The notes under the pieces were generated by a model that was not told the origin of the DNA, ran no database searches, and saw only the letters and a program-made list of their open reading frames with translations. Both the position numbers and the translations under genes were made by a program. Below, in pieces: positions 3,107 through 64,000 of a stretch of DNA of 64,000 nt. The stretch comes from Acidobacteriota bacterium (lineage in GTDB: Bacteria > Acidobacteriota > Terriglobia > Terriglobales > Acidobacteriaceae), in assembly GCA_031296115.1 (NCBI GenBank), contig JARLGI010000023.1, forward strand, positions 62,001 through 126,000. Reading direction: 5' to 3'. The stretch's first letter is position 1. Each line of letters opens with the position of its first letter.

Positions 3107-4225
3107 ATGTCACGTTCTACTTTATTGATGCTTGCGATGTCGTGTGCTCTCACCTGCGCCAGCTTTGGCCAGGCTTCGAGCCAGAAACCGCAATCCCCCG
3201 CCCCGGCGCCTACGCCGGCGGCCACTCCAGCCCCTCCTCCCCCGGCCCCGCCGGAACCCACCCTGCCCTCGACCAGCGTGGTTCCCATGAGCCAGCCCGT
3301 GGTTACGCTGAAGGGCGCCTGCAAGCCCAAGGAAGGCAGCACGGTCCCGCCAGCGGGATGCGTCAGCAGCCTGACCCGCCAGCAGTTCGAAGACATCACC
3401 AAGGCGCTCACTCCAGCGGACCGCCCGCTCATGTCGCCGGACATGATGCGTAAGTTCGCCACGCAATATTCCAAGCTGCTGATTTTTGCCGATCAGGCGC
3501 GCGAGATGGGCCTGGAAAATGATCCCCGGGTGCAGCGGATCTTCGCCTTCGCCAAGAACCAGATCCTGACCGAGGCACTCAATCAGCAAATCACGCAGCA
3601 GTATGCACATCCGTCGGACCAGCAGATCGAGGACTACTACAAGGCGAATCCCAAGAAGTACCTTGAGGCCACGCTGATTCGCATCATTGTTCCCAAGGCC
3701 ACTGGCGCGCCTGACAATCCCAAGCGGACGGACGCCGAAGAAGCAGCCTACGCCGAGGAGATCCGGAAGCGTTGGGTCGCCGGGGAGGATCCGGAGAAGC
3801 TGCAGAAAGAAGCTACCGAGCACGGCAAAGCCGCCGGTGCGCCGCCCGCCGTCAACATCGGCGGACGCCGCCCCGGCGCGCTGCCGGAAGCGCACGAGTC
3901 GGTCTTCGACTTGAAGGCCGGCGAGATTTCGCCGGTATTCAACGACCCCGCCGCGTCGTATATCTACAAGGTGGTTTCGGTGCGGCAGGTGCCGCTCAGC
4001 GACGTAAAGTCCGTCATCTCGTCCACGCTGTCGCGGCAGATGATTACCGATCGCATCCAGCAGATCCAGAGTTCGGTGACACCGGTGCTGAACGACACCT
4101 ACTTTGGGCCGGAGAAGCCGCCGAGCGTCAACCAGACGATCATCACTCCCAAGCAGGGACCGCCGATGAGACCGGGGACGCCGCCTCCGCCACCGCAGCA
4201 GAACCAGCCCGCTCCTCCGAAGTAA
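3107..4225 (+). CDS. Secreted peptidyl-prolyl cis-trans isomerase (SurA/PrsA-like, parvulin)
   Basis: 372 residues. The start at 3107 has a strong ribosome binding site (GGAGGAAAAC, 6 nt before ATG); the frame is open further upstream but that stretch is the antisense of the CDF gene. Residues 1-21 are a signal peptide (MSRSTLLMLAMSCALTCASF). A Pro/Ala-rich linker (~25-55) is followed by a SurA-type helical chaperone region and a parvulin-like domain (~185-300; EATLIRIIVPK, then GGRRPGALPEAHESVFDLKAGEIS). The C-terminus is again Pro-rich. It would act on outer-membrane or periplasmic protein folding. It sits 2 bp before the epimerase gene and is probably co-transcribed with it. Confidence 0.82.
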   Translation: MSRSTLLMLAMSCALTCASFGQASSQKPQSPAPAPTPAATPAPPPPAPPEPTLPSTSVVPMSQPVVTLKGACKPKEGSTVPPAGCVSSLTRQQFEDITKALTPADRPLMSPDMMRKFATQYSKLLIFADQAREMGLENDPRVQRIFAFAKNQILTEALNQQITQQYAHPSDQQIEDYYKANPKKYLEATLIRIIVPKATGAPDNPKRTDAEEAAYAEEIRKRWVAGEDPEKLQKEATEHGKAAGAPPAVNIGGRRPGALPEAHESVFDLKAGEISPVFNDPAASYIYKVVSVRQVPLSDVKSVISSTLSRQMITDRIQQIQSSVTPVLNDTYFGPEKPPSVNQTIITPKQGPPMRPGTPPPPPQQNQPAPPK

Positions 4226-53914: not shown

Positions 53915-54281
53915 GGGGGCGTCACGGCTTCGACGGAAGTGATTGCGGTAAAGAGGCATACCGGAGTGCGTGCATCCGTAATCGTGCGCAAAAACACAAT
54001 TGCCAATCAAAACCTGGCATACGCAGCTTAATTAATTAAGTTGCCGTCTTCCTCGGCTTTGCTCACGGGCCGAGAGCAGGCGTCGCACAGTGAGCTGGCT
54101 GCGAACTCTCCGCCTGTGAGTTCGTGGCGAGATCATCAGGCTGGCCGTCCGCGTTTCTTGTCCGTTCTGAGCGTGGAAGGCGAGAGTGCCGTCTAACAGC
54201 GGCGCGGGAACGCGACTAAGTATGTAGTCTCTTTGCTGGCAGCATTTTCGGACGCGGGTTCAACTCCCGCCGCCTCCACCA
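53915..54281 (+). ncRNA. ssrA: Transfer-messenger RNA (tmRNA)
   Basis: 367 nt. The 5' end GGGGGCGTCACGGCTTCGAC and the 3' end ACGCGGGTTCAACTCCCGCC, GCCTCCACCA can form the 7-bp acceptor stem (GGGGGCG/CGCCTCC, one G-U) and the T arm with GTTCAA. CCA is encoded. The mRNA-like part reads AKNTIANQNLAYAA followed by TAA (resume codon GCA near 53988), a normal tag ending in hydrophobic residues for ClpXP/ClpAP. tmRNA rescues ribosomes stalled at the end of broken mRNAs. Confidence 0.95.
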
Positions 54282-54284
54282 TAT
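54258..54284 (+). other. Island attachment site attL (in the ssrA 3' end)
   Basis: GTTCAACTCCCGCCGCCTCC, then ACCATAT at 54258-54284 is repeated at 63346-63372 with one mismatch. It spans the T-arm and acceptor 3' strand of tmRNA plus 3 bp, a common target of tyrosine integrases. Confidence 0.75.
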
Positions 54285-54427
54285 TATTTTGTTTGTTTTC
54301 ATTAGTTTAGTAGATGAAAATAGCAAAGTTACACAAAACAGACACAACTTTGCTCAAATCCAAGATATTTCTTCTGGACAGGTAACGGGCTGCTCAAGTC
54401 TGCCGTGGCATTGCCGCCACTAGCGGA

Positions 54428-56821
54428 TCACTGCTGTAGCCGCATCTTTTTCAAGATTTCAATATAACGCGGGTGCTGGTGCAAGGATTTGAACAGCGGA
54501 TCGAGTTTGAGTCCGATCAAGCCAGAGTCATGTTGTTCGTAGGCGCGATCGAGCCACTGTATCGCTTTGTCGACCTCTCCGCGATACGCATATACCTCAG
54601 CGATCTGAAATGCCGAATCGTTCGCATGGGCGGCGATGAGTTCTCTCAGTGCGGCATCTGACTCTTGGCGACGTCCCAGAGAGTAGTAAGCAAATGCTTT
54701 ACCCTGCAATCTCTCCCAATCAGCGGTCTCTTGCTGCATTTGGGCCAGCGCTTCCTGACGGTGCCCTTGTGCCAGCAAGATCTGGCCGAGCCCAGCGTGG
54801 GCGAATGCGTGCTGGGGATTTAACTCCAGGGCCTTCTGTAACGCGCCATTGGCTTCTTCGTATCGTCCAGCCTCGTATAACTGGTTGCTCAAAACTAGGT
54901 AAGCGCCAGCTTGCAGCGGATCCAGCGCAATCGCCTGTTTCTGTAACTCGATGGCTTCCTTTAAATTTCCCAACATCTCCTGCAATTCCGCACGATAGCC
55001 CAGTAGGTCAGCTCTTCCGGGTTCCAGTACCGCCGCCTTGTTCAAGGAAGCCTCAGCGCCTTGCCAATTGAAGTCATATTTGATCTGGACATTGGCCAAT
55101 GCGAGGTATCCTGCGGCCGAATTCGGGTCCAAAGCGATGGCTTGCTCTGCGTCTGCGCGGGCGCGGCGAAATCCTTCATTGGTGTCAACGAAGCCCTCTT
55201 GAGCAGCTTCGGAATAAGCGGCGGAGCGCAGGGACCAGGCTGGCGAGTAGTTCGCGTCCAGCTTGATCGCCTGGTCAGCGTATGCCAAGGCCGTGTCAAA
55301 GTTAGCTTTCCCTCCTCCGCGACTGCGAAAATATCCGGCCTGCAAATAGGCCTGGTAGGCGTCGGGATTGGTGCTTCGCGAACGCGCCGCGACGGGTGCG
55401 GCGGCCGTTCCGAGCAGCTTGACTTGCAATGCCCCAGTCACAGCGCGTGCGATTTCATCCTGCACCGCGAAGATGTCTTTCAGCTCGGTGTTGTACTCCT
55501 CAGACCAAAGCTGAAACCCGTCCGCAGCCTTGGTGACCTCTGCGGTGATGCGGACACGGCTGCCTTCCCGGCGCACGCTGCCTTCAAGAATGTTCGCCAC
55601 ATTCAGCGCCCTTCCGACCGTTCGGGGATCTTCATTCCTGCCCTTGAACTGAAAGGCTGAAGAGCGTCCTGCGACCTTCAAACCCGGTACTTTGGCAAGC
55701 TCGTTGGTCAACTCTTCGGCGAGTCCGTCGGAAAAATACTCCTGATCTTTGCCCGCGCTCATGTCAGCAAAGGGCAGTACCGCGATGGACGCCGTATTAA
55801 TTGCGGCGGCGTGCATCCGGGTGCGGCTTCGCCAAACATAGCTTCCCACCAGGGCTGCCAGCAGCAGGACTACCGCTAGGACTGCCAGCTTGCCACTCCG
55901 GAGCCTGGCAACTGGGGTTGGCGGCTTACCGCTGACGCTCGTGCTCTCTGCGAAGCGATCCGTTTCCAATCCGCGCTGCAATCTTAGTAAGTCTGCCCGC
56001 ATCTCCGAGGCATGCTGGTAACGCAGATCGGCATCCTTCTCCAAGGCCTTGTTGATAATGTCTTCCAGTCTGGAAGGACGGTCCGGATTCAGTCGCAGAG
56101 GCGGCGTCGGCGCTCGGTTCAAAATAGCGTCGAAGATGTCGGCGGGCGATTCGCCGCGGAATGGCAGAATCCCCGTCGCCATCTCGTAGAGCACGACACC
56201 GAAGGAGAAGAGGTCGGTGCGCGCATCCAGATCCTTGCCCCTGGCCTGTTCAGGCGACATGTACAGCAGCGTTCCGATAGGGATTCCGGGAGTGGTTAAG
56301 AAGCGCGACTTCGTCGTGGCCTCATCCGCGCTTGCCACCGAGGCACTTGTTGGCGCCACTTGTGCAAGACCAAAATCCAGGATTTTTGCGTGTCTGCGTT
56401 CGGTAACAAAGAGGTTGGCCGGTTTAATATCACGATGAACAATACCCTTGTTGTGAGCAGCGTCGAGCCCTTCGGCGATCTCGATTGCCAGGGACAACAA
56501 AGCTTCGGTTTCCAACACGTGTCCGGCGATGGTGTGCTTCAGTGTCTTGCCTTCGAGCAACTCCATCGCGATGAAGGTGCGGCCACCTTCCTCGCCGATC
56601 TCATAAATGGTGCAGATGTTCGGATGATTGAGCGCCGAAGCGGCCTGCGCTTCACGCCCAAAACGCTCTAAAGCCTGCGCCTCATGAGCCAGGTCGTCCG
56701 GCAGAAACTTCAGGGCGACAAAGCGATGCAGGGTTACATCTTCGGCCTTATAGACAACACCCATTCCGCCGCCACCCAGCTTCTCGACGATGCGGTAGTG
56801 CGAGATTGTTTGGCCGATCAT
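54428..56821 (-). CDS. Membrane Ser/Thr protein kinase with FlgO/TolB-N-like and TPR domains
   Basis: 797 residues. Kinase domain (9-275): [14 protein letters not shown], catalytic Lys38 in [38 protein letters not shown] and Arg-rich C-lobe; all catalytic residues are present. TM ~311-330 ([19 protein letters not shown]). Residues ~344-470 ([40 protein letters not shown]) match the TolB-N/FlgO-like module common after kinases in Acidobacteria, then TPRs to the end. It is predicted to sense envelope signals and phosphorylate cytoplasmic targets. First gene inside the ssrA island. Codon use seems less GC3-rich than that of the flanking chromosomal genes. Confidence 0.9.
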
Positions 56822-57203
56822 TGGCGCGAATCTTACGTCCCTAAGATGGGCAAGTCAATGAAGGTTGGGAACTTGGGAGCGTTCCAGGTTTGACTATTGG
56901 CGATCGCGGAATCAAGCACATAGGCTCCTCGCTGCGCCACCCTTTTTTGACCAGTTGGAAAAGCTAGACCCAGGTGTGTGAGCATCCGCGTGAATCACTA
57001 CCGCTATGCCGACTTGCACTAAGACTTCCCGGTAGTGATCCGATGAAAGCCACTTCCACGACTTGCCGACTTCTCGTCACGGTGATTTAGCGCCCGACAG
57101 GCGGATAACGAGTGCAATGGCTGACAGCGTCAACCGCCGTTCCTAATCTCATTTCCAAGTATTTCCACAGGATGAACGGGACGAGTGCTGCAGTTGTGCA
57201 GCA
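56822..57203. other. Intergenic region in the island, with one diverged 47-bp repeat
   Basis: 382 bp without a gene. Positions 56909-56955 (GAATCAAGCACATAGGCTCC ... CACCCTTTTTTGACCAGT) recur with changes at 61069-61116. The kinase promoter should be here. Confidence 0.6.
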
Positions 57204-57851
57204 TCAGAGCGACTTGTCCATCAATATCGGGCCCCCATGCTCAGCGATTGATGCAAAGACGTGCTGTCCGTCGAAACGATGAGCCGCGTATGACCGTTTT
57301 ACCCGTTCGACGAATCCCTGCTTGCGGAAAATGTGCTGGGAGGCTTTATTCGTCGCCTCGGTGACCGCTAACCGATAACCTCGCCGGTTCCCGTGCTCCA
57401 GGCAAGCCACGACGAGTTGCTGCGCCACACCCCGTCCAGCAACGCGATCGGATACCCCGAGCAGGAACAGGTGGAGGGACTCGCCGGGACGAACTGTCCG
57501 ACCACTCCGGTACTCCATATCTAACTGCCCCAGGATATCGAAGATCGGATTGAACTTTGCACTCAGCCGATCTATCCCGTCAGGCATCGCGGATGCCGAG
57601 TCCTCCGTCAGCAGCGCACCGACCAACTCACCCCTACCGGCGAGCCGGGCCACAATTGTTAAGGCGTCGATGGCAGCTTTAGGGCAGAGCAGCCGCACAA
57701 ATTCTTCGAATTCAGGAGCGGTAAGCGCGACTGCCACGGCGGGTGGATCGTGACGACTGAACACCTCGCCCAGCAGTTGCACCATTGCTTCGGCTTCGGA
57801 GGGGACATAGACGCCATATTCGATCAGTTTGTGTTCGGGTGAATCTGCCAT
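57204..57851 (-). CDS. GNAT-family N-acetyltransferase
   Basis: 215 residues from ATG 57851 (GGGAG 6 nt upstream). GNAT core: LHLFLLGVSDRVAGRGVAQQ (acetyl-CoA pyrophosphate loop, R-x-x-G-x-G/A), then NRRGYRLAVTEATNKASQHI and FRKQGFVERV (N-A/S-x-x-x-Y/I-x-K-x-G-F). The N-terminal ~60 residues are unusual. Substrate unknown. It is inside the island. Confidence 0.75.
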   Translation of the reverse strand: MADSPEHKLIEYGVYVPSEAEAMVQLLGEVFSRHDPPAVAVALTAPEFEEFVRLLCPKAAIDALTIVARLAGRGELVGALLTEDSASAMPDGIDRLSAKFNPIFDILGQLDMEYRSGRTVRPGESLHLFLLGVSDRVAGRGVAQQLVVACLEHGNRRGYRLAVTEATNKASQHIFRKQGFVERVKRSYAAHRFDGQHVFASIAEHGGPILMDKSL

Positions 57852-57973
57852 CGGCATCTCCCGCCTCTCGCCATTCTAGACTGTCCTTTTCTGGGCGATG
57901 AGGCTGGACTGGCCCGATTCGTCAATCGAGAGGACCGGAGACGCCGTCGCCTTGGATATAATCTTGCGCACGG

Positions 57974-58042
57974 ATGACGCTAGCCCCAGGTATCAAACTC
58001 GGCCCCTATGAAATTCGTGCGCCGCTCGGCGCCGGGGGAATG
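57974..58042 (+). pseudogene. Ser/Thr kinase N-terminal stub
   Basis: ATG at 57974 opens MTLAPGIKLGPYEIRAPLGA, GGMG, i.e. the first 24 residues of a PknB-type kinase up to the glycine loop. At 58043 it runs straight into transposase sequence in reverse orientation. The rest of the kinase gene is missing. Confidence 0.75.
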
Positions 58043-58320
58043 GGCCAGGACTTCGTCCTTGGTCTGCACCTTCTTCTCCAAGAACTCAATCCGTTTCTGC
58101 TTTTCCTCCACTTGGCGGTGAGGACGCTCCCGAGACTGAAAAGCGGCCGCTCCATTCCCGAACAGTTCCTTCTGCCAGCGATAGAACACAGTAGGGCGCA
58201 GACCCAGTTCTTCACACAACTCCGAGACGGGCACCTTGTCCAAAACTGAGGCAGGACAATGGCACCCGCTCCCAGCGCCGCCGCTCCTCGTTCCACCTGT
58301 ACCATCCCGGTGTCGTCATC
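58043..58320 (-). mobile_element. IS3-type transposase OrfA remnant
   Basis: On the minus strand: LDKVPVSELCEELGLRPTVF, YRWQKELFGNGAAAFQSRER and a coiled-coil EEKQKRIEFLEKKVQTKDEV, the HTH and leucine-zipper-like part of IS3-type OrfA. It ends at the kinase stub; the expected continuation (ELMAEH-type) is absent. Upstream, WYRWNEERRRWERV in another frame may be its N-terminus, implying a frameshift. No OrfB and no terminal repeats were found. Confidence 0.6.
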
Positions 58321-58755
58321 TGCCTTTTCCTTTGCTTGCCCTCTTGTGATGGCTCTCGGGAACAGACTAGGTAAAGCATGTGAATGTCCACAAGACACCA
58401 GGAGGGAGCAGGTAAGATGCCTTGTTATCAGGAGCCTAGATCACACAGCCGGAATCGGCGAGAGATCCCAATGAGGGAAAGATGTTCCCTTCCGCAATAC
58501 TGTGTGGGATTGGTACACAGGTGAAGCAGTGGTCCCAGCAAGTTAGTTAGAGAGGGGGTATTACCACTCTGGCTGAAATTGCTCGAACCCGGGACGGACA
58601 AAATCATCTGGTGCAGAGGACGGTATGACCACATCAGTGGAATAAGATCGTGAGTGCTAATGCCTGTTTGCAACAACAGTCGGCGCCCTCCGGTTTGGCC
58701 TATGCTCTAGTAAGCTCTGGATGTTATTGCCTTTATCGAAAACTCAGAACTGCGG
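58321..58755. other. Island region without recognised gene
   Basis: 435 bp. Open frames are short and show no family features; possible old mobile-element DNA. Confidence 0.4.
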
Positions 58756-58812
58756 ATGGCACGCGAGCGGATATCTGATATTTGGGGCGGCACTTCAAGT
58801 CCATGGGAAGAC

Positions 58813-59289
58813 ATGATTCGCTTGCCGCTTGTCAGGCGGATACTCGCCGTGTTGGTGGCGGTGCCATTGAGTGCGATAGGTTTCGCTATAGCCGACAACC
58901 CAAGCACGCCCGGAGCGACAAGACTGCTCGTCGCGCCCGGATATGTCGTTGCTTTCCATTTACCTATTTACGCTTACAATCCGGGATTCCTTGGCAACAT
59001 CGGTAGACTCGCCACGGCAGCCCTTGCGATAAACGTCTGCTACTACACTTCTTTGCTGCTTGGATTGATGAGATTTTGGTCGGCAGCCAAACGTAATAAG
59101 CGCCTGCACCGATGCCGAATCGGTCCCCAAGCCCCCGCGAAGGCAACGGAAAGAAGCGTATCTTGCCTCAATCCCTCACAAGCCAGAATATGTCCGTCTG
59201 GTTTCTCTAGCAGACAAAGTGCACAATGCGCGGACAATACTGGCCGACTATCGTGTCCTCAAGGAAGGCGTTTGGGAGCGCTTCGGTGA
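58813..59289 (+). CDS. Small membrane protein, C-terminus probably altered
   Basis: From ATG 58813 (GGGAAGAC before it; an in-frame ATG at 58756 is possible) the first ~95 residues have three helices: LAVLVAVPLSAIGFAIAD, LLVAPGYVVAFHLPIY, and ATAALAINVCYYTSLLLGLM. From ~59100 the frame runs over HD-domain DNA read in the wrong frame, so the last ~60 residues look artificial. Probably a membrane protein of ~95 residues whose end was replaced by the HD fragment. Family unknown. Confidence 0.45.
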   Translation: MIRLPLVRRILAVLVAVPLSAIGFAIADNPSTPGATRLLVAPGYVVAFHLPIYAYNPGFLGNIGRLATAALAINVCYYTSLLLGLMRFWSAAKRNKRLHRCRIGPQAPAKATERSVSCLNPSQARICPSGFSSRQSAQCADNTGRLSCPQGRRLGALR

Positions 59290-59446
59290 GAAAAAAGGGG
59301 GAACGCTTTGGTATTATCGTGCACTCGCCGATGTTTTCATGCGACTTGGGCCAAAGCTCCTTGCAGCCGAACTCGAAAGAACCGTATCTGGGATCGAGCG
59401 CCTTTCTGCGTCTTCGACTCGGCTCCAGAGGGAGGAAGTGGAATGA
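59098..59446 (+). pseudogene. HD-domain phosphohydrolase, 5'-truncated
   Basis: Frame ending TGA 59444-59446 encodes CTDAESVPKPPRRQRKEAYL, ASIPHKPEYVRLVSLADKVH, NARTILADYRVLKEGVWERF and LWYYRALADVF. This is the C-terminal half of RelA/SpoT-like or MESH1-like HD hydrolases. The N-terminal H-x-n-HD part is missing and no start codon precedes it in frame. Confidence 0.7.
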
Positions 59447-59961
59447 CAAGGATAGTTTCTGGAATGCTTGCGGTCATGTTTTCCGCCTTTGCCGTAGCGC
59501 AACAACCAGACAGCGGCATCACTCCAGGCAGCGTAGCTCAGCGAGCTGCCGGAGCGGCGGTAGCAGACCACCAGAATTCAGCTATGAGTGGCAACATAGA
59601 AGTCCTGAGCGACACTAAAGGCGTAGACTTCCGCCCGTACCTTTCCACGGTCGTTGAAACAGTCCGCACAAACTGGTACAAATTCATTCCAGATGAGGCA
59701 AGGGCTCCGGTGATGAAATCCGGAAAGGTATCAATAGAGTTCGTGATTCTGCCAGATGGACGCGTTGCCGGGGTAAAGCTCACCGCCCCTTCTGGAGATA
59801 GCGGGATGGATCGGGCGGCGTGGGGGGGGCTCACCGCTAGTGTTCCATTCGCCGCTTTACCAGCAAAGTTCAAAGGTCCCTATCTTGCCTTGAGGTTTAC
59901 TTTTTATTACAACCCGAAGAAGACGCCCTCAAACGATCCCAGCAAGAACGAGGCGCATTAA
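59443..59961 (+). CDS. Secreted protein with TonB-C-terminal-like domain
   Basis: 172 residues from ATG 59443, overlapping the HD fragment stop by 4 bp, with GGAGG upstream. Signal peptide (TRIVSGMLAVMFSAFAVAQQ). Residues ~60-155: RPYLSTVVETVRTNWYKFIP, KVSIEFVILPDGRVAGVKLT and DRAAWGGLTASVPFAALP match the TonB C-terminal fold (V-x-x-x-W, V-x-I/V-x-F-x-I-x-x-D-G). It lacks the membrane helix and Pro-rich region of a true TonB. The overlap shows it was coupled to an intact HD gene in an ancestor. Confidence 0.75.
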   Translation: MTRIVSGMLAVMFSAFAVAQQPDSGITPGSVAQRAAGAAVADHQNSAMSGNIEVLSDTKGVDFRPYLSTVVETVRTNWYKFIPDEARAPVMKSGKVSIEFVILPDGRVAGVKLTAPSGDSGMDRAAWGGLTASVPFAALPAKFKGPYLALRFTFYYNPKKTPSNDPSKNEAH

Positions 59962-60055
59962 TCCGGCGTAGCGAGGGACTGCAGCGTATCTAACTAACGC
60001 TTCTCCGTGGGGCATGCGGCGGCTGATTCGGATCTCCTATTCGAAAACCTAAATA

Positions 60056-60760
60056 ATGCCTGGGGCTACAGAAAAGTCGCTTGAGCTGGCGTGTCTCGTA
60101 ATCCTCGGGTGTCTTCTCGCAAGCGCACAAACCGTGCAAGTGCTGCCAGAAGTTGACACCTACCTTAAGCTGAGTTCCGATCTGCGTGCCAGTTTCCAGG
60201 TAAAGGAGACAAGAGAAGGCGGCGATCCCACGGAAGCTGAAATAGGGCCCAGCCTTGACTTATATCTGCAGCCGTTGGCTCGCCTACAAAACGCCACTGA
60301 GTTCGATCTGGACGACTCGAAGTCCCGGCCTTTGGTATTTACGGTCGGATATCGCTATCTGCCCCAGGCTAACAATGCACCAGCGATAAACCGAATCGAG
60401 CCGGTTGTAACATTACACTTTCCCCTGAAGGCGAAATTTCTGCTGACAGACGGTAATCGTGGGGATCTTGACTGGCAGAGCGGGGGCTTCTCTTGGCGTT
60501 TTCGCAACCGCATTCAAATCGAAAAGAGACTAACAATCCGCTCTTACCACCCTGCCCCGTACGTCAGCGCCGAGTTCTTCTACGAGAGCCAATACGGTAA
60601 ATGGAGTGATACCGCGATCTATGCCGGTTGTCTCCTTCCAATTGGCAGGCACGTTCAGTTTAACCCCTACTACGAGCACCAGAACAACACCGGCAAGAGT
60701 CCAAATCAGCAACTGAACCAGTTGGGACTGATGCTCAATCTCTACTTCTCAATCAGGTAG
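60056..60760 (+). CDS. DUF2490-type outer-membrane protein
   Basis: 234 residues. Hydrophobic N-terminus (LELACLVILGCLLASAQT), then a beta-barrel-like protein: PEVDTYLKLSSDLRASFQVK, FTVGYRYLPQANNAPAINRI, SWRFRNRIQIEKRL, YVSAEFFYESQYGKWSDTAI, FNPYYEHQNNTGKSPNQQLN and a C-terminal LGLMLNLYFSIR. DUF2490 is an uncharacterised family with this layout. A lone gene within the island. Confidence 0.75.
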   Translation: MPGATEKSLELACLVILGCLLASAQTVQVLPEVDTYLKLSSDLRASFQVKETREGGDPTEAEIGPSLDLYLQPLARLQNATEFDLDDSKSRPLVFTVGYRYLPQANNAPAINRIEPVVTLHFPLKAKFLLTDGNRGDLDWQSGGFSWRFRNRIQIEKRLTIRSYHPAPYVSAEFFYESQYGKWSDTAIYAGCLLPIGRHVQFNPYYEHQNNTGKSPNQQLNQLGLMLNLYFSIR

Positions 60761-61268
60761 AGGTCAGTGAACGAATGCTCCGCTCACTGCGCCGGGACCA
60801 CAGGAACCACGGTGAAGGCGGTCAGCGGGGCAGCACGGTCTGCGGTTCTCCGTAGCGGAGCCCCTCGTCCCCAAATTCAGTGAAGCTACTTGGTTTCCCG
60901 GTTGATGCAAAGACACGCGCCAGTAAAATCTTCCCCCGTAGAAGCGACCCGTTCGCGATGTTCTCCAGCCCGACTCGACTCTAAGTCGTTCCGCAAGGCG
61001 ATGATATGGCAACGGTTCACAATCTATAGTCTATTGACCGCCCAAACCTGAAAGGTTCCGAGCCCTTGGAATCAACCAGATAGGCCCTCTTCCTCCGTCA
61101 CCCCTTTTTGACCAGTGATCACAGCGCGCCATGGAGCGGAACGGACACATTCGGGAACACTGGCCGACTTGTGGGGAGTAATCTCCCACATGAGGGTTTC
61201 TGGATAGTCTCCGGTTGGTCGACTGCGCAGGAATTTAGCGCCTCCGCGCTGTTCCCGGTGTAGATCCG
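60761..61268. other. Island region with the second copy of a diverged repeat
   Basis: 508 bp without a gene. Positions 61069-61116 (GAATCAACCAGATAGGCCCT ... CACCCCTTTTTGACCAGT) copy 56909-56955 with scattered substitutions. Nothing else recognised. Confidence 0.55.
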
Positions 61269-61269
61269 C

Positions 61270-61350
61270 TCATGGGCTAGGCACCTCGGATTGCCGCCTG
61301 ATTTCGCGCTCGCGCAGCCAAGTGAAGATCACTGGCGTGACGATCAGAAC
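61270..61350 (-). pseudogene. Heavy-metal RND pump (CusA/CzcA-like), C-terminal fragment
   Basis: On the minus strand VLIVTPVIFTWLREREIRRQ, then SEVPSP and TGA (61272-61270). T-P-V/A-I-F-x-W/L-L-R-E-R-E is the end of HME-type RND pump proteins. Only ~26 residues are left; the left neighbour is another fragment. Confidence 0.65.
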
Positions 61351-61353
61351 ATG

Positions 61354-61604
61354 GGCTGATTCTCAACTACATGGTCATCGAAACCGAGGCGCACAGCCCT
61401 ACGGATTTCGACATAATGCTGATGACCGAATACAAGGACCTGGCGACCATGGAGGCCAACCAAGACAAAGAGGAAGCGGTAACCAACCAAGCTCTAAACA
61501 GCAACGATCAGAAGATGATCGCGGGCTACCAGGAACGCGCAAACTGGCGAGAGATTATCGGCAACCGGCTGGCACGGGAAATCATCCTGGAGCCGAAGAA
61601 GTAA
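61354..61604 (+). pseudogene. Secreted conserved protein, C-terminal fragment
   Basis: Frame to TAA at 61602-61604 gives LILNYMVIETEAHSPTDFDI, MLMTEYKDLATMEANQDKEE and ANWREIIGNRLAREIILEP. The pattern L-x-E-Y-K-D-x-A-x-x-x-A ... R-E-I-x-G-x-R-L-x-x-E-I resembles a family of small acidobacterial proteins of unknown function, without their N-terminus. It starts exactly where the RND fragment ends. The codon at 61371 (ATG) could give a 77-residue protein, but this is likely not native. Confidence 0.5.
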
Positions 61605-61980
61605 CCTGCTTTGCCTTGTTAAACGTCAAAGGCACGAGGGATCGCGCCTTTAGACTTTAATCGCAGCTACGATGCTGGATCGCGGCGTCCCCACGGTCAT
61701 TCGGCTGGCTGGCGAATCATTACTTCAGGGACGGTCTGTTGGGCTATTGGCGGTTGGTTAGCCAGGGGGGTGGCCAGAAACCACTGCGTTAAGGATGAGG
61801 ATATTGTCGTTCGATCTTATTAGGGGCTGACTACAGTTCCGGTTCGCAACCCGCGAACGGGATAAGCAGCGAGAGCACTCCAAAACGGGCGAGACTTTTG
61901 GGGCTATAATTGCTGCCCACGGCCCATTTGCAATATCCAACTAGCGGAGCATACTCGTGCCCGCAACAGGAGGTCGCCCC
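61605..61980. other. Island intergenic region
   Basis: 376 bp without an identified gene. The last ~20 bp carry the ribosome binding site AGGAGG of the next gene. Confidence 0.5.
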
Positions 61981-62583
61981 ATGCCAATCACTGACTGCAA
62001 TAAACCCACCGCTCCTCACAAGGACTCAGCTTCCGGCCATGGTAAGCGTTGCTCGGACGCACAGTGGGAAGCAAGGGAAAACGCGATTCGAAAAGCCATG
62101 ATTTGGGGTTTGGCGGAGGCTGAAGACTGCCTTTCGGGATGCAGACACCGTACAGTGAGCATAACACTGACCCTCTCTGACTGTACTCAAAAGGATGCCC
62201 ACCCCGGTTTGTTTTTTTGTACATGCGATTGGACGGCAACGGTTGAATGTAAGAAGGACCCGGTGAGCGCACCGGCTGGCAAAACAGAGGTGCAGCCGTC
62301 GTCCGGACATCCTGACTGCACGGAATATGTTGAGGCCCACGGTACTGGCAAGAGTAACGATCAGGTTCATGTGGGTGAGGCGAAAGCTGCTGCTGTAAGT
62401 GACGCCAAAGATAAGGCCCTAGAGGAGGTAAAAAAGGTCCCCACGAGTTGCCCGAGCAAGTGCCCTCATCCCAAGGTGACCGTCTCCCTTGGAGAGGCGA
62501 CGGCGAAAATCACGGGCACAGGTGCTCAGGCTGTTTATGAAGCAACCTGCGACTGGAAACTGATTATCGAGTGCTCCGGGTAG
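61981..62583 (+). CDS. Cysteine-containing protein with a duplicated domain, unknown
   Basis: 200 residues from ATG 61981, preceded by AGGAGGT at 6 nt, a very strong site. Two halves align: residues ~25-95 (EARENAIRKAMIWGLAEAED, CLSGCRHRTVSITLTLSDC, CTCDWTATVECKK) and ~125-200 (AKAAAVSDAKDKALEEVKKV, CPSKCPHPKVTVSLGEATAK, ATCDWKLIIECSG). Shared pattern: helix, C-x3-C-x-H/(P)H-x-x-V-x-x-x-L, then C-D-W-x-x-x-x-E-C. No signal peptide. The four cysteines per unit suggest a metal site or disulfides. No known family. Confidence 0.7.
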   Translation: MPITDCNKPTAPHKDSASGHGKRCSDAQWEARENAIRKAMIWGLAEAEDCLSGCRHRTVSITLTLSDCTQKDAHPGLFFCTCDWTATVECKKDPVSAPAGKTEVQPSSGHPDCTEYVEAHGTGKSNDQVHVGEAKAAAVSDAKDKALEEVKKVPTSCPSKCPHPKVTVSLGEATAKITGTGAQAVYEATCDWKLIIECSG

Positions 62584-62585
62584 GG

Positions 62586-62926
62586 ATCGGCGGCTACAGT
62601 CCGGTTTCGTACTTTGAAAAGGGCCGGAACTGGGCAAGCCTGAATTTGGAGCCGTTCACGGCGGCCACCTCACTTCTCAGGCACAAAAGAATCAGTTCAC
62701 AGCCGCTCCGGAAAAGTATCTGCCGGCCTTTGACGGTTTCTGCGCCTTCGGCCACACAATCGAAAAAGAGTTTGCCGTCGATCCGACCAGCTACAAGATA
62801 GTCGATGGCCGCCTGCTCCTGTTCCTCAAGAACAACGACGTTGACGCCCTGAAGCTGTGGAACCACGGCAACGAGAAGGAACTGATGGCTAAGGCAGAAG
62901 GTCACTTCGCTAAGAAGGCCGCATAA
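62586..62926 (+). pseudogene. YHS-domain protein, frameshifted
   Basis: IGGYSPVSYFEKGR at the left is in one frame; PELGKPEFGAVHGGHLTSQA, QKNQFTAAPEKYLPAFDGFC, AFGHTIEKEFAVDPTSYKIV and VDALKLWNHGNEKELMAKAE are in the next, ending TAA at 62924-62926. Together they form a YHS protein (G-Y-D/S-P-V-x-Y-F ... F-x-x-x-P-x-K-Y-x-P-x-x-D-G-F-C-A). There is a +1-type frameshift at about 62620 and the N-terminus is missing. Confidence 0.75.
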
Positions 62927-63008
62927 TCTGGGTGCCCCGTTCTACGGAAGAGCTTGCCGTGAGCGAAGTCAAAAAAGTAGGGCGGGGCCTATCTAACGCC
63001 GACGGACT

Positions 63009-63220
63009 CTACGAATCCTTCTTCCCCACCACTGCACTCCCCAACTGCTTCAACTGGTGGTCGCTTACTAGGGTGGGCGTGCGGCCATAATCAGGTCGAT
63101 GGCTTTTGCCGTCTTGGGGAAGGGCATGACTTCGCGCAGGATGCCGGCGCCGGCGAGGATCATCACAATGCAGTCGATGCCGAGGGCGATGCCTCTGTGC
63201 TGCGGCGTACCGTACGGTTC
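63009..63220 (-). pseudogene. Aspartyl-tRNA synthetase, C-terminal fragment
   Basis: On the minus strand [40 protein letters not shown], then a +1 shift, [14 protein letters not shown] and TAG. The motif 3 end of AspRS is recognisable (GTPPHGGIALGxDRxVMLLA in intact enzymes, with the R of motif 3 here replaced by Cys). Only the last ~70 residues; the functional aspS must be elsewhere. Last piece inside attR. Confidence 0.75.
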
Positions 63221-63345
63221 GCGGCGAAAGTCGCGTCTTTGAACGTGGTCAATACGCGGTCAACGATTTGCCCACTTTCGAGTGTTCAGCGTTTTGTGCG
63301 CCCCTAAGCATTCAATAAGTTCCCTGTTTTCAATGCGACGCGAAA

Positions 63346-63372
63346 GTTCAACTCCTGCCGCCTCCACCATAT
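63346..63372 (+). other. Island attachment site attR (ssrA 3'-end duplicate)
   Basis: GTTCAACTCCTGCCGCCTCC, then ACCATAT, 26 of 27 bases identical to 54258-54284. The bases just to the left (GACGCGAAA versus GACGCGG) are also related. A second complete tmRNA is not present here, only the duplicated end. Confidence 0.75.
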
Positions 63373-63439
63373 ATTCTGCATGCGCAGCGGGCTTCAGACC
63401 GCTGATTCCAGTTGTTGACAGCTCTCTTTTCTGCCGAGC

Positions 63440-64000
<561 letters not shown>

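Follow-up and report, generated by a model that had tools for sequence, protein, structure and literature searches.

The Islander catalogue of islands integrated in transfer RNA (tRNA) and transfer-messenger RNA (tmRNA) genes reports, in the excerpts of its description used here, that tmRNA is more enriched as a target than any tRNA type, and it requires an integrase (PMC4383910). The islands in the tmRNA gene (ssrA) of Dehalococcoides are attributed, in excerpts of the paper describing them, to a serine recombinase (PMC3146451). Here we analyse the region downstream of ssrA in the draft genome of an Acidobacteriota bacterium of the family Acidobacteriaceae (assembly GCA_031296115.1), using a stretch of 64,000 bases, hereafter the window, that covers bases 62001-126000 of a contig ending at 126513 (513 bases past the window). 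We consider it highly likely that the interval 54285-63345 of the window is what remains of an integrative element inserted at the 3' end of the tmRNA gene by site-specific recombination, and comparison with relatives points to a tyrosine integrase as the enzyme that very probably made the insertion. The locus is a decayed tmRNA-gene island, which is a known kind, and a well-preserved example of a common event.

Like the islands in the Islander excerpts, this one is bounded by an intact tmRNA gene and, opposite it, by a displaced 3' fragment of the same orientation, and its length falls within 2-200 kb. Unlike them, it has no integrase gene, so an integrase filter would reject it, and it is a relic rather than a complete member of that class. 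The Dehalococcoides islands, as excerpted, are similar in the duplication of the ssrA 3' end (20 bp there), in forming tandem islands and in using the T-loop region, but they have the serine recombinase DsiB and belong to another phylum. Three islands of the same family (genome and contig G469:C441, locus L240; G181:C2, L246/L247; G015:C60, L050) have the same core as the window, and L240 and L246 also the same right-end spacing. In contrast to the window, these islands retain an integrase frame, and an arm word stands at both ends of L240 and L246, whereas the window has one at the right end only; L050 is without the right-end motifs.

Results

The ssrA gene of the window matches Rfam model RF00023 over its full length (model 1-374, 180.8 bits). 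A first-pass annotation made from the letters of the window had proposed that the 27-bp end of this gene recurs once, with one mismatch, on the far side of the interval, and a genome-wide search confirmed it. The repeat, GTTCAACTCC[C/T]GCCGCCTCCACCATAT, is identical at 26/27 positions, with C in the proximal copy and T in the distal one, and its copies lie 9,061 bases apart, which is the length of the island. At up to three mismatches it occurs at two places in the draft genome (3,748,931 bases in 125 contigs, 93.6% complete), both on the + strand, rather than being scattered over unrelated loci; a reversed control gave 0 matches, and the number expected by chance was 0 in 100 shuffles of the window.

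Since the same-genus relatives provided no junction of ssrA with katG, the gene beyond the distal copy (Table 1), the evidence for an empty site was taken from a hairpin instead. The sample comprised eight genomes of the same genus, and the ssrA region was obtained from seven of them; in G004 the tmRNA search yielded no full match, and unread bases interrupt the ssrA gene of G006. In two, G007 and G008, the uninterrupted site is seen: ssrA is followed directly by a strong hairpin, 32-34 nt past the gene (z -4.1 and -3.6, respectively), which is presumably the ssrA terminator. This hairpin aligns to 63385-63413 of the window with a score of 33 for G008 and 32 for G007, values reached by 0/500 background windows in each case (maximum 20 and 23), compared with 13 and 12 for the flank right after the window's own ssrA. 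Across 630,711 bases of the own genome (17%), the hairpin at 63385 was the only one of 35,954 windows to score so high, with each reference. The spacing from core to hairpin is 15 bases in the window and 32-34 in the relatives. A hairpin that lies 9 kb from ssrA, past the distal copy of the gene's 3' end, together with the element-type right end described below, shows the insertion.

Upstream, bshC adjoins ssrA in 7/7 same-genus regions. Downstream of the relatives' ssrA, BLAST at the thresholds used found only a generic kinase match in G007 and an island end in G006 like that of the window. Synteny on this side among the same-genus relatives is limited to a 1.5-kb match between G003 and G007 (and one of 140 bp), at different distances, and to 57 bp right after ssrA in G007 and G008. 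None of 20 relatives' ssrA loci, several of them short, has the genes of the interval at the same place, and kinase-domain similarity appears in two. Among the relatives retrieved with bshC (80 of 478 kept), nearly all carry the label of uncultured Acidobacteriaceae, Terriglobia, Terriglobales or Acidobacteria, in many cases with 'bog' or 'palsa' in the name, and one is labelled Bacillota.

The stretch 63220-63372, which ends with the distal repeat copy, resembles the ends of other elements (Table 1). Its match to G005:C34 stops exactly where the repeat stops, and parts of it recur without the core in G003, G007 and G005. We compared 17 distal copies, namely the window's, seven from relatives and nine from among the same-contig pairs listed; at the first copy of L239 and L243 the search detected no ssrA, and in L204 this copy is a truncated ssrA piece. 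Nor are the 17 copies independent: the window and L204 have a common end. The motif CAAYAASTY precedes the core by 32 or 33 bases in 10/17 distal copies, compared with 302/200,000 random 50-nt windows, and a direct repeat with a period of 10-11 bp (at least 8/9 matches) starts at -106 to -95 in 9/17, including the window, compared with 64/20,000 random stretches. The window has both parts of this layout, an 11-bp-period repeat near -100 and CAAYAASTY near -33. The repeated word near -100 varies from element to element. In L240, L243, L244 and L246, a word of 11-18 nt is common to the two ends of one element, against at most 8-10 in the other pairings of these left ends; the other 13 of the 17, including the window, have no clear left-right word, and the long word of L050 is an overlap of its flanks. 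We take the end repeats to be arm-type integrase sites.

L204 (G005:C34, 7755-9070, - strand) consists of a truncated ssrA 3' piece with hairpin, one gene, and an element right end with core, and it lies apart from the intact ssrA. In G002, contig C155 (L203, 1-25) starts exactly with a core copy and the ssrA contig ends 94 bases past ssrA; this may be an island cut by the assembly.

The window showed neither an integrase nor a left arm, and the enzyme class is therefore deduced from relatives. When PF00589 matches were listed over 16 genomes, the result was too unspecific to place integrases at ssrA; a local profile made from these hits was used instead. In G469, a tyrosine integrase frame of 348 aa opens 21 nt past ssrA, and the distal copy follows 5.5 kb on; the frame matches PF00589 at 1.9e-4 (below the cut-off) and a PHROG integrase at 4.4e-25. 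G181 (170 aa), G015 and G533 likewise have an integrase frame behind ssrA or a core copy. Partial frames stand at contig ends downstream of ssrA in L122 and, on the opposite strand, in L070, and in the same-genus G006 an integrase frame runs through and past a core copy until it is cut by the contig end. Pieces in G201 match the local integrase profile only and have no Pfam match. At up to one mismatch, the 24-base core is present in 233/300 family genomes (reversed control, none). Two or more copies were counted by hand in 48/300, a number of candidates rather than of verified islands. An island is also compatible with one copy, given that in G005 and G019 the counted copy is not that of ssrA. 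The two cores of a same-contig pair in G340 are 62 kb apart.

The tmRNA 3' ends of G005 and G019 (L035 and L045) are without an encoded CCA (CTCCATGC and CTCCACAC, respectively). On a soil viral contig (IMG/VR, L251), a core at 3832-3855 starts 169 bases before an integrase match and has unlike repeat words on its two sides, as at a junction of two elements.

The interval is also compositionally foreign, as GC content and tetranucleotide profiles, two of the checks suggested with the first-pass annotation, both indicate. Its GC is 0.555 compared with 0.600 (sd 0.013) in a background of 127 overlapping windows from 620,611 bases of the own genome, one of which is as low, and its tetranucleotide distance exceeds that of all 127.

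Discussion

We propose that an element with its own copy of the tmRNA 3' end would have recombined with the chromosomal ssrA. Integration would have set the element's copy onto ssrA, so that the tmRNA stayed whole, and would have pushed the original 3' end and its hairpin 9 kb away; the integrase and the left arm would have been lost by deletion later, although we infer both this loss and the order of events. An insertion at the tmRNA 3' end that restored the gene and later lost its integrase had been suggested from the start, and it is supported by the hairpin, the right end, the composition, the patchy cargo and the lack of a PF00589 match. Since the searches revealed no integrase and no left arm that matches the right one, the island has probably ceased to be mobile.

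Several observations weigh against this account. A clear match to the hairpin comes from two relatives only, the flanks of G001, G002, G003 and G005 being unremarkable. The distal flank of G006 scores 17, a value reached by 29/500 background windows, and the hairpin stem of the window is decayed and no longer folds cleanly. On G005:C34 a hairpin precedes the element end, an order that a simple insertion model does not explain. CAAYAASTY is absent from 7/17 distal copies and present in 533/65,135 windows (GC up to 0.5, either strand); the range of -106 to -95 was set post hoc, and with any place and a period of 9-14 allowed, 147/3,000 random stretches reach 8/9. The flank after the window's ssrA is closer to the flank of the truncated ssrA piece in G005 (score 33) than to any tested element left end (best 26). 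The first-pass annotation had seen no integrase, and indeed there is no PF00589 match on the window's contig (C82) even at E<=10, with 18 elsewhere in the genome. The uninterrupted ssrA-katG junction that it proposed to look for did not turn up in the same genus. No katG lies beside ssrA in the 17-18 kb inspected in G001, G003 and G007, or in the 1.2, 1.3, 0.1 and 1.8 kb inspected in G005, G008, G002 and G006; four of the seven ssrA contigs stop 0.1-1.8 kb past the gene. Elsewhere, katG is on other contigs in 6/8 same-genus genomes, G003 has a short match only, and G002 has none.

A heterogeneous cargo with fragments, and a left flank without an arm repeat like that of the right end, would also fit a fusion, in which two or more islands entered ssrA successively before their integrases, inner ends and inner repeat copies disappeared in a deletion, leaving a left flank and a right end that stem from different elements. 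Relatives do carry several core copies per contig (three in G533), in G533 and G469 the flanks that follow the proximal and the distal copy resemble each other, and the core of the soil viral contig has its unlike repeat words on two sides. However, the interval contains no inner core copy (at up to 6 mismatches) and no second CAAYAASTT, and the loss of a left end by one island takes fewer steps. We regard fusion as rather unlikely, and a single element that lost its left end and integrase is the simplest account.

Islands in ssrA made by a serine recombinase of the Dehalococcoides DsiB kind are published (PMC3146451, in excerpts), but the right end of the window has the repeat and spacing of family elements with a PF00589-type integrase beside ssrA, which makes such an enzyme a very improbable agent here, although no search aimed at serine recombinases was made. 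A misjoining of contigs at a short repeat is conceivable in a draft genome of 125 contigs, but we give it hardly any credence: both junctions are on one contig and in the right order, the copies differ by one base, and the displaced hairpin has a single occurrence among the 630,711 bases searched in the own genome.

The family might host an undescribed lineage of ssrA-specific elements with a fixed end layout, of which the window holds a fossil. The layout would consist of the core, CAAYAASTT at -33, and a pair of arm sites spaced by 11 bp near -100, with a variable word that, in intact elements, recurs at the left end. We put this forward tentatively, as a possibility that falls short of a conclusion. 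If true, a fixed frame with changing arm words could allow one target to serve many elements, each of them recognised by an integrase of its own. The end anatomy common to these acidobacterial elements may not have been described before, which is our guess from a limited literature search by titles and abstract openings; term look-ups in PMC5900883 and PMC11924767 gave no tmRNA match.

The locus illustrates that the displaced hairpin and the shared element end make it possible to identify and delimit a tmRNA-gene island that has no integrase. Island finders that require an integrase would miss it, and attachment-site arms could serve to find further fossil islands. It also points to ssrA as a site through which elements have repeatedly entered uncultured soil acidobacteria.

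Features of the island and its flanks

Table 1. Features of the ssrA island and its surroundings, in window coordinates.
Feature	Position	Strand	Evidence or remark
ssrA (tmRNA), intact	53915..54281	+	ARAGORN; Rfam RF00023; tag ANQNLAYAA
Proximal 27-bp repeat copy; putative attL core, restored ssrA 3' end	54258..54284	+
AT-rich flank after ssrA; element left end or old ssrA flank	54285..54321	+	no arm-type repeat like that of the right end
Inverted repeat; probable terminator of the convergent kinase gene	54322..54354	.
Ser/Thr kinase with tetratricopeptide repeats, open frame, 797 aa	54428..56821	-	PF00069 1.3e-46
GNAT-type acetyltransferase, 217 aa	57204..57857	-	PF00583 1.4e-6
Insertion sequence (IS) orfA fragment (HTH_Tnp_1)	57980..58243	-	PF01527 1.2e-5
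TonB C-terminal domain protein	59308..59961	+	PF13103 1e-7; true start probably near 59443
DUF2490 protein, 234 aa	60056..60760	+	PF10677 3.4e-10
77-aa open reading frame, possibly a fragment	61371..61604	+	no family match; longer frame 61341-61601 likewise
Cys-containing orphan protein, 208 aa	61957..62583	+
YHS-domain protein fragment	62618..62923	+	NF041384 2e-15, 57 bits (cut-off 70); no Pfam match
Class-II aminoacyl-tRNA synthetase C-terminal fragment (aspS type)	63110..63214	-	PF00152 4.6e-8
Element right end	63220..63345	+	81% over 153 bp (63220-63372) to G005:C34; 74% over 82 bp (63288-63369) to G006
Direct repeat, 11-bp period; presumed arm-type integrase sites	63243..63262	+
CAATAAGTT	63313..63321	+	33 bp before distal core
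Distal 27-bp repeat copy; putative attR core, displaced ssrA 3' end	63346..63372	+
Displaced hairpin sequence	63385..63413	+	directly 3' of ssrA in G007 and G008
katG 3' part, outside the island	63440..64000	-	PF00141

On the left side of the island no arm was found in the window: the longest word common to both ends is 6 nt, no more than unrelated pairings give. A motif is common to element left ends and native ssrA flanks, and the origin of the window's left flank is therefore ambiguous. The fold of the region at 54322-54354 is unremarkable compared with shuffles (z -1.5).

Profile matches bore out the first-pass gene labels for the Ser/Thr kinase, the GNAT enzyme, the IS, the YHS fragment and the aspS fragment; those for an HD piece, an RND piece and a broken kinase, all short and plausible by eye alone, found no convincing match. 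The HD piece has none in Pfam and only an unrelated NCBIfam match at E 0.13, and the RND piece has none in either database. The N-terminal stub of the broken kinase (57974-58063, + strand, overlapping the IS fragment) has none in Pfam and reaches E 0.14-0.2 in NCBIfam; it was seen by eye and is unconfirmed. The TonB C-terminal domain protein and the DUF2490 protein were missing from the original gene list.

No coherent function is seen in the cargo. The orphan protein occurs in 2/399 genomes of the class, its own and one at 29% identity, DUF2490 in 22/300 family genomes and GNAT in 10/300 (own included in both; two of the GNAT matches are weak). In G502, a kinase gene and the GNAT gene are adjacent and in the same order. 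A defence role of the kinase was considered and not adopted: many PADLOC kinase models match (best PD-T4-6, 1.6e-86), and they do so via the generic kinase domain. A phage origin was likewise rejected, with only the kinase and, weakly, GNAT among seven cargo proteins matching PHROGs. By eye, the orphan protein seems to consist of two related Cys-containing halves.

The largest tetranucleotide distance in the background belongs to L184 (1-9061; G000:C63, at about 180-189 kb), which is also the one background window with a GC as low as that of the island (0.548) and is a candidate second island.

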